From: Acidobacteriaceae bacterium
GTDB taxonomy: Bacteria > Acidobacteriota > Terriglobia > Terriglobales > Acidobacteriaceae
Direction: 5' to 3'
NCBI GenBank assembly: GCA_030039035.1
Contig: JASHQQ010000087.1
Coordinates: forward strand, 1-43,469
DNA: 43,469 nucleotides
Part shown: one piece after another, positions 13,060 to 20,635 of the stretch
Numbering within the stretch: the stretch's first letter is position 1
How the letters are laid out: every line of letters begins with the position of its first letter
The notes under the pieces: model-generated
The model's database searches: none
What the model saw: the letters and a program-made list of their open reading frames with translations, nothing else
Told to the model about the DNA's origin: nothing
Position numbers and translations under genes: made by a program

Positions 13060-14235
13060 TTACATCGTTCGCACGTAATTCTTTCCCGGCAACTGTCGCA
13101 CACGGCCGGCCAACTCGAGCTCGAAGAGCGCCGTAAACACCTCAGAAGATGTCAATTGCGTCTCCATCAGCTCGAGAATCCCATCGATCTGCAGCGACTC
13201 ATCCGAGCGTAGCACTTCCAGTACCATCGCCTCCTGGGGCCGCAGGACCGGGTCAGGCAGTAATGATGCGGCAGGAGACGGTTTGGATGCAGCCGGAACC
13301 TGCGACTCCAGTTCCAGCCGCACCTGCGAAGGCAGATCCTCCCAGACGTCTTCCCACGTGGCCACGAGCTTGGCGCCCTGTTTTATCAATGTGTTGGGGG
13401 TCCAGGAATTCTTGCTGGTCACGTTGCCCGGCACGGCAAAGAGATCGCGGTTCTGGTCGGCGGCGCAGCGCGCGGTCACGCGCGTGCCCGAGTTCTCGCC
13501 GGCTTCCACCACCAGCACGCCCACGCTGAGCCCGCTGATGACGCGGTTGCGCCGCGGAAAATTCTGCGGCGCGGGAAACGTGCCCATCGGCACCTCGCTG
13601 ACAATGGCTCCGCCGGAGGCCAGAATCTCTTCGGCAAGCTTCTTGTTCTCTTTCGGATAGACCACGTCGATGCCCGTTCCCCACACGGCCAGCGTGGGCA
13701 TGCGCGCCGCCAGAGCGCCCTTGTGCGCAGAGGAGTCGATGCCGCGCGCCATGCCGCTGATGACGAGCATGCCGCGCGCCGCGAGGTCGCGAGCCAACAT
13801 CTCAGCCACGCCGCTTCCGTAAGGCGTGGGATGCCGCGTTCCAATGATGGCGATCGCCGGACGCGCCAGCAGGCTCGCCGCTCCGCGCACCCACAGCACC
13901 GGCGGCGGATCGTAAATCTCCCGCAGGCGCTCCGGATACTCCAGACACGAATAAGTGAGAATTGTTGCGCCGTCTCCGGCGACCCGAGCCCACTCCTGCC
14001 CGGCCGCGGACCGCGCGCGGCCGTCGAAGACGAACTGCGCCGCCTCGGCGGGAAACTTCAACCCCTCGAGCGACGTGAGCGGAAGCGAAAAGAGCTGGCC
14101 CGGAGTTTCCAGCTCGCGCATTGCGTCCACAATGCGCCTGGGTCCCAGGCCCGGCGCGAGCACGAGAGCCAGCCACGCCAGCCGATCTTCGTCCAGTTGC
14201 GCCGGCAGCACCGCGCCATCCACGGTCACATGCAT
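13060..14235 (-). CDS. dprA: DNA-processing protein DprA/Smf
   Basis: 391 residues. DprA loads RecA on incoming single-stranded DNA during natural transformation. Residues 1-100 form the SAM-like N-terminal part (LAWLALVLAPGLGPRRIVDA). The extended Rossmann fold follows: AIIGTRHPTPYGSG, ARGMLVISGMARGIDSSAHK, VWGTGIDVVYPKENKKLAEE, SEVPMGTFPAPQNFPRRNRV, ISGLSVGVLVVEAGENSGT and a later FAVPGN. The usual SG-(S/T)-(L/R)-x-TA then AA-x-Q-x-R pattern is present (SGTRVTARCAADQNR). The C-terminal 70 residues form the winged-helix-like DprA tail. The ATG at 14235 has GGGAG upstream. The length is normal for the family. Confidence 0.97.
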   Translation of the reverse strand: MHVTVDGAVLPAQLDEDRLAWLALVLAPGLGPRRIVDAMRELETPGQLFSLPLTSLEGLKFPAEAAQFVFDGRARSAAGQEWARVAGDGATILTYSCLEYPERLREIYDPPPVLWVRGAASLLARPAIAIIGTRHPTPYGSGVAEMLARDLAARGMLVISGMARGIDSSAHKGALAARMPTLAVWGTGIDVVYPKENKKLAEEILASGGAIVSEVPMGTFPAPQNFPRRNRVISGLSVGVLVVEAGENSGTRVTARCAADQNRDLFAVPGNVTSKNSWTPNTLIKQGAKLVATWEDVWEDLPSQVRLELESQVPAASKPSPAASLLPDPVLRPQEAMVLEVLRSDESLQIDGILELMETQLTSSEVFTALFELELAGRVRQLPGKNYVRTM

Positions 14236-14358
14236 TTGGTCCCGCTCCCGCGCCCATACTTTCAGGCGGTGATCTCCGATGGGGAACGAAACACACGCTG
14301 AACAAGGGGTAATGCGCTCAAAGTAACGGTTGATGCGCTGGGTGTCAAGTCGGTGGGA

Positions 14359-14526
14359 AGCTTTCAGCCGTCAGCCGTCAGCTATTTGGCTTTCAGCTTT
14401 CAGCCTTCAGCCTTCAGCCTTTAGCCTTTAGCTTTTAGCTCTTAGCCCTTGGCCCTTGGCCGGTGAGCCGTCATCTGTTCCCTGTTCCCTGTTCCCTGTT
14501 CCCTGACCTCTGATCTCTGATCTCTC
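14359..14526. repeat. 24-unit heptamer tandem array (drifting unit sequence)
   Basis: From 14359 the sequence divides into 24 consecutive 7-mers without any slip. The unit drifts: AGCCGTC twice, CAGCTTT, CAGCCTT three times, TAGCCTT, TAGCTTT, TAGCTCT, TAGCCCT, TGGCCCT, TGGCCGG, then TTCCCTG four times (14478-14505), ACCTCTG and ATCTCTG. Adjacent units differ by one or two bases, as expected from local duplication. It occupies most of the gap between dprA and mqnA; the rest (14236-14358 and 14527-14545) shows no gene. Confidence 0.93.
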
Positions 14527-14545
14527 CGCTGATAATCTAAAGACC

Positions 14546-15424
14546 GTGAGTTCACTCCAGCACAGGCGGCTGCGCGTGGCCGCAATTGGCTTTCTCAACC
14601 CGGCGCCGCTGATGTGGGACTTCGATCATCCGCCGCTGGCTGCGGAGCTGTCCACGCGCTACCAGGTCGAATCGATGATGCCTTCGGAGTGCGCCGACCG
14701 CCTGGCCAACGGGACGGCCGACATCGGCCTTGTCCCCATTGCCGCCCTCGCCACCACGCCCGGCCTGCGCATCCTGCCCGGCTGCACCATCGCATCGAAA
14801 GGCCGGGTCCGGTCGCTGTTGCTGGTGCGCCGGGCCCGGCAGCCGCTCGAGAAGCTGCGCAACATCGCGGCCGACATCGCCAGCCGGACCACACTCATCT
14901 ATGCCCGCATCCTGCTCCACGGATGGGGGAATCCGGCGGTTCCTTTCGTGCCCATGGCGGCCGACCTCGACGCCATGCTCGATCGCGCCGACGCCGCCAT
15001 CGTCATCGGCGACCCCGCCCTGCTGGCTCTGGAAGAACGCGCCAACCGCGTCGAACGGACCGGTGAAGAGCTTGTCTACCATGATCTGGCCGGAGAATGG
15101 CACTCCCTGACGGGCAGTGCATTTATCTCCGCCGTCTGGGCGGCCGGCCCGGCTTGCAGCGGCACGCTCGACGAGAGCATTACCGCGGATCTGGTCCGCT
15201 CGCGCGATCGCGGTCTGGCCAGGCTCGATGCGCTGGTTGAGGAGTGGGCGCGCAAGCTGCCCTTGTCCGAGCAGACCATTCGTTCCTACCTGACGACGAA
15301 CATCCACTACGTTCTCGATGAAGAATGCATCGCGGGAATGCGAGAGTTTTTTCAAAAGGCAGGGGAGGTTGGTGCGCTGCCGGAGTACGCTCTCGGCGGA
15401 TTCGGCGGCAGCGCTGTTCGATAG
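14546..15424 (+). CDS. mqnA: Chorismate dehydratase MqnA (futalosine pathway)
   Basis: 292 residues from a GTG at 14546. MqnA removes water from chorismate to give 3-enolpyruvylbenzoate, the first step of the futalosine route to menaquinone. The fold is a periplasmic-binding-protein-like pair of lobes: VAAIGFLNPAPLMWDF at the start, then PSECADRLANGTADIGLVPI, LLVRRARQPLEKLRNIA, a DRADAAIVIGDPALLALEER motif and DLAGEWHSLTGSAFISAVWA. These match the family order and length. It implies this organism makes menaquinone via futalosine, but no other mqn gene lies in the window. The ribosome-binding site is weak; an ATAAT-like element sits just upstream in the end of the heptamer array. The gene is flanked on both sides by heptamer arrays. 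Confidence 0.93.
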   Translation: MSSLQHRRLRVAAIGFLNPAPLMWDFDHPPLAAELSTRYQVESMMPSECADRLANGTADIGLVPIAALATTPGLRILPGCTIASKGRVRSLLLVRRARQPLEKLRNIAADIASRTTLIYARILLHGWGNPAVPFVPMAADLDAMLDRADAAIVIGDPALLALEERANRVERTGEELVYHDLAGEWHSLTGSAFISAVWAAGPACSGTLDESITADLVRSRDRGLARLDALVEEWARKLPLSEQTIRSYLTTNIHYVLDEECIAGMREFFQKAGEVGALPEYALGGFGGSAVR

Positions 15425-15583: not shown

Positions 15584-15618
15584 AGCTGAAAGCTAAGAGC
15601 TAGAAGCTAAGAGCTGCT
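15584..15618. repeat. Five-unit heptamer array, opposite orientation to the 14359 array
   Basis: AGCTGAA, AGCTAAG, AGCTAGA, AGCTAAG, AGCTGCT in exact 7-bp register. AGCTAAG is the reverse complement of CTTAGCT, which occurs in the middle of the 14359-14526 array. The array ends three bases before the fabH stop codon. Confidence 0.85.
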
Positions 15619-15621
15619 TTC

Positions 15622-16638: not shown

Positions 16639-16716
16639 TGCATTTCTCCTTGCCCGAAGACCGGGGTCGCGGGAACCCTGGGAGGAACGTGCGCAACTCG
16701 CGCTCCGCGCACAAAA

Positions 16717-16814
16717 GTACCGGGTGACCTACTGCGCCCGTACTAGCCCGTTACCGTTGCTTCCTTCCGGACCTGGCGGGGTTGGCGGGATTACGTCGCG
16801 TAGGACCCGGCACT
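16717..16814 (-). ncRNA. ffs: Bacterial signal recognition particle RNA (4.5S-type)
   Basis: The minus strand carries the universal SRP apical-loop sequence CAGGTCCGGAAGGAAGCA. The distal ends pair: GTGCCGGGTCCTAC at the 5' end (plus strand 16801-16814) with GTAGGTCACCCGGTAC at the 3' end (plus strand 16717-16732), with one small bulge. The length of about 98 nt suits the small bacterial form. It works with Ffh and the FtsY receptor encoded at 40111-41094. A TAAAAT -10 element lies at the correct distance upstream. The exact ends are set from the pairing. Confidence 0.93.
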
Positions 16815-19356: not shown

Positions 19357-19447
19357 CATCCCTGACTCCTGATCCCTGATCCCTGATCCCTGTTCCCTGT
19401 TCCCTGTTCCCTGTTCCCTATTCCCGATTCCCGGTTCCCGGTTCGCT
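19357..19447. repeat. 13-unit heptamer array overlapping the 3' end of ribD
   Basis: Units in unbroken 7-bp register: CATCCCT, GACTCCT, GATCCCT three times, GTTCCCT four times (19392-19419), ATTCCCG twice, GTTCCCG and GTTCGCT. The central GTTCCCT block is the same as TTCCCTG of the 14359 array in another phase. The last four units lie inside the ribD frame and encode its final residues (EPGTGNRE) and stop. Confidence 0.93.
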
Positions 19448-20635
19448 GACTTTCGGCCACGGGTCGCGAAGCAGCGCGCTCAAGCCAAGATCGTTGCCGT
19501 AGCGCTCCACCTCCATCCCGGGCATCATGATGGCGTTGGCCAGTCCCCGAAATGCGGGCACGGCGTCGGAGCCCATGATCTGGGGCGAGACGAACAGGTG
19601 CACGCGATCGACCAACCCGCAGGCCAGCAGCGCCGTGTTGAGCCGCGTGCCGGTCTCGGTGAGCAGGGTGAGAATTCCCTCCTCGCCGAGCCTGTCGAGC
19701 ACCCGGCCCAGAGGCACGCGCGCGGCCTGCAGACCCGTCGCGGAACTCCGTTCGCCGGGTGCAGGGGCCTCAGCCGGCAACGCTTCCACACGCACGCCGC
19801 GCCCGGTCAGTTCCCGGATTTTCGCTTCGTCCTTTGAGACGGTGAAGATGAGCACGTCGTTGTTCGCCGACTTGACCATCTTCGCGTCGAGCGGCATGCG
19901 CAGCGCCGAGTCGAGCACCACGCGCAGCAGCGGCCGGCGGCGGCGCAGGCCGCTGCGATCGGTGAGCATGGGGTCGTCGGCAAGCACCGTGTCCACGCCG
20001 GTCAGCGCGGCGTCGGCCTGCCAGCGCAGCGGCTGCACGGCGGCGCGCGCGGCCTCGCTGGTGATCCAGTAGGGCTCGCGAGCGGAGTGCTGGCCCGCCG
20101 GCGGCGCGATGCGGCCGTCGAGCGTCATGGCCACCTTCATCAGCACCAGCGGACGCTTGTGCTGGCTCCAGCGGGCGAATCCCTCATTGATGCGGCGCGC
20201 CTCGGCCTGGCAGACTCCCAGCGACGTCTGCACGCCCGCCGCCTGCAACGCCTCCATCCCGTGGCCCGCGACGTTGGGATTGGGATCGACGGTCGCCGCC
20301 ACCACCCGCTTGATGCCGGCTCCGATCAGCGCCTGGGTGCACGGTCCGGTGCGGCCCACATGGTTGCATGGCTCCAGCGTCACATACGCCGTTCCGCCGA
20401 AGAGGCGATTGTCGGTTCCATAGGAGGTCGCATGCTGGCCCGCCTCGCGCAGCGCGATCACCTCGGCATGATCGACCAGGTCATACTCGTGCCAGCCTTC
20501 GCCGATCACCTGCTCCGCGCGGTCGAGAATCACGCAGCCCACCGCGGGATTCGGCGAGCTGACGGCGATGCCGCGCGCGGCCAGCTCCAGCGCGCGGTGC
20601 ATCCAATAAATGTCTTTTTCAACATCGCTGCGCAT
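19418..20635 (-). CDS. ribD: Bifunctional riboflavin deaminase-reductase
   Basis: 405 residues. The N-terminal deaminase domain (residues about 1-150) removes ammonia from the pyrimidine of the GTP-derived intermediate; its zinc site is H56-A-E58 with C90 and C99 in PCNHVGRTGPC. The C-terminal reductase domain (about 165-395) has LMKVAMTLDGRIA, GVDTVLADDPMLTDR and LTETGTRLNTALL. Length and domain order are normal for RibD. The last eight residues and the stop are encoded by a heptamer repeat array (19357-19447), so the natural C-terminus has evidently been replaced or extended. No FMN riboswitch was seen upstream. The divergent catalase-like gene lies 222 bp away. Confidence 0.96.
   Translation of the reverse strand: MRSDVEKDIYWMHRALELAARGIAVSSPNPAVGCVILDRAEQVIGEGWHEYDLVDHAEVIALREAGQHATSYGTDNRLFGGTAYVTLEPCNHVGRTGPCTQALIGAGIKRVVAATVDPNPNVAGHGMEALQAAGVQTSLGVCQAEARRINEGFARWSQHKRPLVLMKVAMTLDGRIAPPAGQHSAREPYWITSEAARAAVQPLRWQADAALTGVDTVLADDPMLTDRSGLRRRRPLLRVVLDSALRMPLDAKMVKSANNDVLIFTVSKDEAKIRELTGRGVRVEALPAEAPAPGERSSATGLQAARVPLGRVLDRLGEEGILTLLTETGTRLNTALLACGLVDRVHLFVSPQIMGSDAVPAFRGLANAIMMPGMEVERYGNDLGLSALLRDPWPKVSEPGTGNRE

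Follow-up and report, generated by a model that had tools for sequence, protein, structure and literature searches.

Inward-facing heptamer arrays with a YAG anchor and a gene-edge polarity in the dprA–mqnA gap and elsewhere in an acidobacterial genome

The STRR repeats of cyanobacteria are tandem runs of heptamers dispersed through the genome, as are the acidobacterial arrays described here. They are known from Calothrix, as cited in PMC4692102. That paper (Rehm 2015) reports, without a mechanism, that the G-rich heptamers of Xanthomonas and Nostoc are polar relative to genes: beside stops the GGGNATC and GGGGA(C/T)T repeats occupy the sense strand, and beside starts the antisense strand, “irrespective of the ORFs orientation”, and the length and sequence of the runs vary between the same genes of two Xanthomonas. 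Runs of TAACTGA adjoin ORFs in Beggiatoaceae, cyanobacteria, and Bacteroidetes, according to MacGregor 2015 (PMC4679880); in BOGUAY they comprise two to six copies (up to 43 elsewhere) and were proposed to be a translational control site, and two Cyanothece strains differ at them mostly by 7-nt indels. Geobacter metallireducens has been annotated with opposite-strand paired sites of four octamers or five heptamers (consensus MTYCTGA), and the authors suggest that IHF/HU may recognise them (PMC2700814). Mrazek 2007, as relayed in PMC4679880, found heptamers to be the most frequent long repeats in the majority of the genomes surveyed, and the proposal that a 7-nt preference stems from the polymerase footprint is ascribed to that work. 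The 2007 and 2015 papers leave unexplained both the dominance of heptamers among long bacterial repeats and the leaning of G-rich units on the gene behind them. Dispersed heptanucleotide repeats are already known as a kind, and the acidobacterial arrays are a variant of it; the parallel with cyanobacterial repeats drawn by the initial annotation of this locus is apt. A search of open-licence full text, supplements aside, found no acidobacterial heptamer family in print, and in the open-licence literature we found neither polarity in pyrimidine-rich units or octamers nor re-formation at the same gene edge with different units.

The window, the whole stretch of DNA analysed here, is 43,469 nucleotides long and comes from an Acidobacteriaceae bacterium, a placement that the named relatives also suggest. 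Its main array (14359–14526) sits within the 310 bases that separate the divergently oriented genes dprA (13060–14235, minus strand; Pfam DNA_processg_A and DprA_WH) and mqnA (14546–15424, plus strand; Pfam VitK2_biosynth); the 168 bases of the array had been taken for the entire intergenic region. On the dprA side, the array starts 9 bases after a GTCAAG box (14344–14349, plus strand) that is kept in many relatives, and on the other side it stops 3 bases before a conserved −10-like box of mqnA, TGATAATCTAA (14530–14540, plus strand). Conservation and position suggest a promoter role for the latter box; a scan of the locus with the sigma-70 consensus found no promoter pair. With the GGGNATC and GGGGA(C/T)T repeats of Xanthomonas and Nostoc, the window arrays share the character of dispersed intergenic heptamer runs of variable length and unit. 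However, GGGAATC and GGGGA(C/T)T units are absent from the main array on either strand, and it occupies a divergent gap, a class under-represented in Xanthomonas and Nostoc (PMC4692102). TAACTGA is one fixed unit, and the array contains no direct repeats of it.

The period of seven in this array is real. Lag-7 identity across 14359–14526 is 0.795, compared with 0.291 ± 0.035 (maximum 0.422) in 2000 dinucleotide shuffles, and the best value at any lag from 2 to 29 in 1000 shuffles is 0.469; TRF also detects the array, and lags 8, 22, and 29 are raised as well. Neighbouring units are the most alike, as first claimed, with an adjacent-unit similarity of 0.795 versus 0.437 ± 0.044 when the order of the 24 units is shuffled (p = 2e-4). 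The register, described in the initial annotation as perfect and free of slips, is not: the AGC/GGC core shifts by one base twice, in 8-base steps at 14380–14388 and 14458–14466, and both period-7 TRF rows that cover the AGC part contain 1–2% indels. Since 168 = 24 × 7, any 168-base stretch can be divided into heptamers. The idea that selection or a mechanism holds a strict 7-bp phase also finds no support, because the array slips twice and octamer arrays are common.

The array resolves better into two oppositely oriented blocks, at approximately 14359–14461 and 14471–14526. The left block consists of (C/T)AGCYNT heptamers on the plus strand (AGCTTTC, which is the actual first unit rather than AGCCGTC, followed by CAGCCGT, CAGCCTT, TAGCCTT, TAGCTCT, and TGGCCCT); its YAG strand is the plus strand and is directed away from dprA, with the step at 14458–14466 at its far edge. 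The right block, on the minus strand, comprises GAGAGAT, CAGAGAT, CAGAGGT, four copies of CAGGGAA, and CAGATGA, and is directed away from mqnA; it is G-rich, as are the repeats of Rehm 2015. Together they form an inward-facing pair, pointing at each other. The stepwise drift of the unit that had been noted is genuine within each of the two blocks. No terminator-like site was found in the array. An assembly artefact is unlikely, because similar arrays occur in many assemblies, including the one-contig genome G060.

Two further arrays lie in the window. The second (15584–15621, minus strand; AGCTGAA/AGCTAAG/AGCTAGA on the plus strand) touches the stop codon of fabH and follows the polarity rule set out below. 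The third (19358–19449), with CAGGGAT, CAGGGAA, and CGGGAAY units on the minus strand, overlaps the 3′ end of a gene called at 19418–20635, whose N terminus we take to resemble RibD. Heptamer units encode the last residues of this gene, PGTGNRE, as well as its TAG stop; here the array has thus supplied a gene end. An Rfam scan of the whole window gave a sole match, to the bacterial small SRP RNA (RF00169, 69.9 bits) on the minus strand at 16715–16812, and none to the main array.

BLAST of the locus against its own genome returns at least 44 matches, self included (40 of 165 first-look candidates scored). Across 55 stretches of that genome, 579,202 bases in all, lag scans find 15 intergenic arrays with a period of 7 and 10 with a period of 8, versus 0, 0, and 1 at lags 4–6 and 2, 0, 0, 1, and 1 at lags 9–13. 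These stretches are runs of contig numbers not picked for matches, and C203 was skipped, being in the match list; 20 of the 76 stretches from this genome were picked for BLAST matches and are hence biased, and L033, L038, L053, L071, and L080, which are all N, were excluded. The expected period-7 excess in intergenic DNA is thus present in the source genome (15 versus 0–2 at the control lags), and it is found in related genomes too; 7-base units stand well above chance and have many intergenic copies in one genome. Searches with reversed patterns are less clean. In the source genome, the regular expression for unit A yields 65 chains on reversed sequence (63 observed), that for unit B 1 (33), and that for unit C 0 (13); the first result arises because the reversed letters of A form another YAG-like unit. 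Likewise, the backwards-pattern control picks up units of the TAGGGAC type and in a few genomes scores above the real pattern (real 0 versus backwards 23 in G031). We therefore rely on the lag scans.

An exact-pattern search of 80 genomes of the genus, the source genome included, found CAGRGAW-type units in 62, CAGCYNT-type in 47, and YAGTTCN-type in 37; at least one of the three is present in 71 and none in 9. The CAGRGAW-type pattern occurs in 31 of 396 genomes of the phylum, scattered across families. It matches 9 of the 15 genomes sampled from one distant family (f33), and G454 carries near-perfect CAGGGAT arrays (L203, 9005–9072); the phylum holds at least one further array-rich lineage.

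The unit has a fixed and a free part. In a motif-free alignment of 112 arrays by strand and phase, three successive columns are dominated by C (.75), A (.71), and G (.88). When 1104 units from 212 distinct arrays are phased on YAG, position 1 is C in 81% and T in 15%, A fills position 2 in 95%, and G fills position 3 in 98%, the A and G figures being partly built in by the phasing; the set includes loci drawn by unit type, so its unit frequencies reflect that choice. Most units are YAG followed by four bases (N4), most commonly GGAA, GGAT, CTTT, TTCT, TGGT, GGGT, AGAT, or CTCT, and N4 can change in blocks while YAG keeps step, for example in the gap at L025 11912–12078. Octamer arrays also occur, mostly of T(G/A)AGGGAC. 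Among arrays of at least six units, neighbours are more alike than in shuffled order in 58 of 60, the window's included, and significantly so (p < 0.05) in 34 of the 60. Recurrent local tandem duplication, the origin put forward in the initial annotation, is well supported by this likeness.

The arrays are also oriented relative to genes. Of 106 intergenic arrays from five genomes, 89 have a YAG strand whose 5′-to-3′ direction leads away from the nearer gene, and 17 have one that leads toward it (Fisher p = 1.3e-12). Polarity was scored by CAG versus CTG in 112 arrays, with six ties left out; arrays lying half or more inside called genes, or without a called gene on both sides, were excluded, and genes were called by a custom codon-score script rather than a standard caller. 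The rule was derived from the source genome (51:11) and then tested in four genomes not used to find it (G169, 9:1; G030, 9:0; G060, 20:4; G454, 0:1), which together give 38:6 in stretches mostly picked around CAGGGAW-type matches. It applies beside gene 3′ ends (52:13) and 5′ ends (37:4), to purine-rich (70:13) and pyrimidine-rich (19:4) YAG strands, and in every type of gap (++, 45:7; −−, 24:4; convergent, 11:4; divergent, 9:2), the divergent gaps still obeying it although no terminator is expected there. Scoring by the G strand gives 80:32 (hand-summed from a table), and a motif-free, purine-driven alignment gives a weaker 77:35. Octamer arrays scored by the G strand run away from the nearer gene in 21 cases and toward it in 2, and 90 further loci, drawn by three unit types and a few of them overlapping, yield 73:23 (20:6, 25:7, and 28:10). 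Exceptions amount to 17 of the 106 arrays and 23 of 96 in the short-locus set. Taken as a whole, the family leans toward the ORF on its 5′ side in either ORF direction. The left block of the window lies nearer to mqnA than to dprA and is scored as a miss, while the right block fits.

A polarity that ignores both transcription direction and composition asks for a directional cause at the DNA level. The four CAGGGAA units of the right block provide four GGG tracts with 4-nt loops, making that strand quadruplex-capable by sequence, and similar repeats form quadruplexes in vitro (Rehm 2015, PMC4692102), so the arrays might act through nucleic-acid structure or RNA-level regulation, as a G-quadruplex or an element of a UTR. 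We consider this very unlikely. The rule is obeyed by C/T-rich units and octamers too, which speaks against an origin in quadruplexes or mRNA and in favour of a directional one at the DNA level; orientation is independent of transcription direction; and the array folds no better than its shuffles (z = −0.09 and −0.53, in a model that ignores quadruplexes). Undirected polymerase slippage, with the 7-nt preference set by the polymerase footprint and the polarity produced by composition or gene calling, would account for the local duplication and for the dominance of period 7 here and in most genomes of Mrazek 2007 (as given in PMC4679880). It is improbable, however, given that the polarity extends to both gene ends, both compositions, octamers, and Xanthomonas and Nostoc.

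Rehm 2015 frames its rule in terms of the G-rich strand, whereas the polarity described here extends through YAG to pyrimidine-rich units (CAGCTTT, CAGTTCA) and, by the G strand, to octamers. YAG is not universal, since GGGGACT of Nostoc has CAG on the other strand than in the acidobacterial arrays. TAACTGA reads CAGTTAT on its other strand and so has the YAG + N4 form of the acidobacterial units. In PMC4679880, the TAACTGA runs of BOGUAY lie mostly just upstream of starts in the orientation that the acidobacterial rule predicts, but a sample from Microcystis is of mixed orientation, unlike the acidobacterial arrays. The Geobacter metallireducens consensus MTYCTGA is a CTG-phase unit. In both that species (PMC2700814) and the Acidobacteriota, short 7- or 8-mers form opposite-strand pairs with several classes per genome; the Geobacter classes each have a fixed consensus and are read as regulator sites, unlike the variable acidobacterial units.

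Arrays lie close to the gene end behind them. Where that is a 3′ end, the median distance is 3 bp and 35 of 58 arrays lie within 10 bp, counting overlaps; where it is a 5′ end, the median is 33 bp and 6 of 48 lie within 10 bp. Such spacing is expected if arrays fill dispensable DNA up to a functional edge. For neighbouring arrays less than 200 bases apart, with duplicates removed, CAG is followed by CTG in 12 pairs and CTG by CAG in 2, and 3 pairs have the same sense. At the G030 locus, 9 of 12 orthologous loci can be read, counting that of G030, whose two arrays stand on either side of a terminator hairpin kept by relatives; an array is present on one side only in two relatives and absent from six, and gaps measure 155, 177, and 186 bases with arrays and 144–177 bases without. 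Because the conserved terminator stands between them, the two arrays look like separate events. A mobile element with heptamer arrays as its inverted ends, akin to a MITE, would produce inward pairs (14 inward versus 4 outward before duplicates are removed) and a patchy distribution. We give this explanation scarcely any chance: the spacers that separate paired arrays look dissimilar by eye, that of G030 being a terminator kept by relatives, single chains make up 43 of the 72 clusters in the source genome, and units differ at the same gene edge.

Inward pairs would also arise at once if both 3′ ends at a double-strand break in the gap were extended by YAG units, as the telomere G strand is, and then joined. 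The polarity is what 3′ extension of the two ends would produce, some pairs meet almost without a gap (that of the window and that at L028 290–391), and the source genome encodes the NHEJ protein Ku. Such repair is nevertheless quite unlikely to be the source of the arrays, given the apparently separate events at G030 and the distribution of the enzymes. Ku was found in 23 of the 80 genus genomes and was not seen in the array-rich drafts G018, G072, G035, G070, and others, and an RVT_1 reverse transcriptase was not found in the source genome (86% complete). The median number of matches is 34 in the 23 genomes with Ku and 16 in the 57 without (p = 0.10). A telomerase-like reverse transcriptase was considered and set aside: RVT_1 is present in 45 of the 80 genus genomes, and its link to array number has p = 0.12. 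Neither Ku nor RVT_1 is needed for, or significantly linked to, the arrays.

At the fabH stop codon, the edge abutted by the second array of the window, arrays recur with different units. This edge is readable in 24 of 48 loci, at least two genomes being counted twice. Eight loci pass a strict lag-7 or lag-8 score; shorter runs are visible by eye in five more (the window, L095, L127, L106, and L111), and 11 have none. In L116, one of the eight, the gap is long and the score may lie elsewhere, but units are visible at the edge. The units include AGCTAAG types and ATCACTG/TTCACTG; two Granulicella have TTCCCTG and another has CAACCTG, and L120 carries an octamer. In the 13 loci, CTG or CTA lies on the plus strand, so that the arrays are directed away from fabH, with some AGCTAG units reading both ways.

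The array between dprA and mqnA, by comparison, is missing from most readable relatives. mqnA was detected in 57 of 60 genomes, the source genome included; none of the 56 matching relatives is close, the best mqnA identity being 76% over part of the protein. In 35 relatives' loci (three genomes counted twice), dprA and mqnA could both be placed as divergent neighbours or near-neighbours. The gap is 165–205 bases in 21 of these, compared with 310 in the window; the remaining gaps measure between 64 bases and several kilobases, apart from an overlap due to a partial dprA. The best 35-base lag-7 identity upstream of mqnA is 0.94 in the window, 0.63 in L092, which has CTGATCC-type heptamers and where dprA is not seen, and at most 0.51 in the other scored loci; in L127, a few CACCTG/TTCACTG units can be made out by eye. 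The GTCAAG and −10-like boxes are 184 bases apart in the window and a median of 57 (35–293) in the 21 other loci with both motifs matched, some large values reflecting an upstream GTCAAG or other inserts. The excess over the median is +127 bases for a 168-base array; the array therefore seems to have entered between the two promoter regions, displacing about 40 bases; the relatives are too diverged to mark the point of entry. In L092 and L096, the gap upstream of mqnA is occupied by another kind of insert, whose hairpin resembles GCACGACTTTAGTCGTGC and whose ends resemble TTGCATAAA...TTTATCCAACCAG; it may be a MITE-like repeat.

That arrays return to the same gene edge fits selection, and paired opposite-strand sites have been proposed in Geobacter metallireducens (PMC2700814). 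The arrays could accordingly be sites for a chromosome-organising or regulatory protein, either IHF/HU-like or a reader of heptameric direct repeats, with inward pairs marking the sides of the gap. We judge this unlikely, because N4 varies freely within an array and between genomes at the same edge, most readable relatives do without the dprA–mqnA array, and nine genomes of the genus lack all three of the unit types searched for.

The reading that we favour, with a probability of roughly 0.4, is recurrent local slippage duplication that grows in one direction, the surviving arrays being those that start at gene edges and point into the gap. While non-coding DNA is being synthesised, a 3′ end with YAG would free itself and re-anneal one step of 7 (or 8) bases back on YAG, through a 3-base microhomology. 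N4 would then be copied again, and the array would lengthen toward the 3′ side of its YAG strand at the expense of the sequence ahead, which would be displaced or overwritten. Arrays advancing into a gene would be removed by selection; the survivors would therefore begin at a gene edge and point into the gap, and two edges would give inward pairs. We infer the direction of growth, the use of YAG as the re-annealing anchor, and the status of the arrays as mainly a tolerated by-product; their effects on abutting promoters would be at most incidental. Slippage alone does not explain the preference for YAG units.

Homogeneity along the YAG strand, compared between equal halves of each array, gives a gradient of 30:23 in 118 arrays (p = 0.025). 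When arrays overlapping or near genes are left out, the ratios are 21:20 (92 arrays, p = 0.09) and 13:12 (49 arrays, p = 0.20), which identify no firm growing end, and the repeats fade out similarly on both sides of the arrays. A growing-end signal of 66:28 was rejected as a product of unequal halves.

Directional slippage growth may also be a general bacterial process, in which 3′ ends add YAG-anchored steps of 7 or 8 bases into non-coding DNA and remake gaps with new units, and which would underlie the heptamers of cyanobacteria, Xanthomonas, Beggiatoaceae, and Geobacter. On this view, the YAG anchor (template CTG or CTA) may reflect the triplets at which DnaG primase starts. This extension is doubtful; if true, one directional process at gene edges would unite heptamer repeats reported piecemeal across bacteria. 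A directional DNA-level cause could be tested in culturable Acidobacteriota. The rewriting of gene gaps and some stop codons by repeats in these genomes matters for promoter comparison, strain typing, and the annotation of gene ends.

The longest of the 112 arrays, L231 2922–3161, belongs to G060 and spans 240 bases, with approximately 34 CAGTGGT/CGGTGGT heptamers. In the same genome, all 13 plus-strand matches to CAGGGAA-type units fall within 2.3–3.5 Mb, and the 17 minus-strand matches lie elsewhere, except at one place at 2.52 Mb, a partition that may follow replication direction or gene-strand bias.
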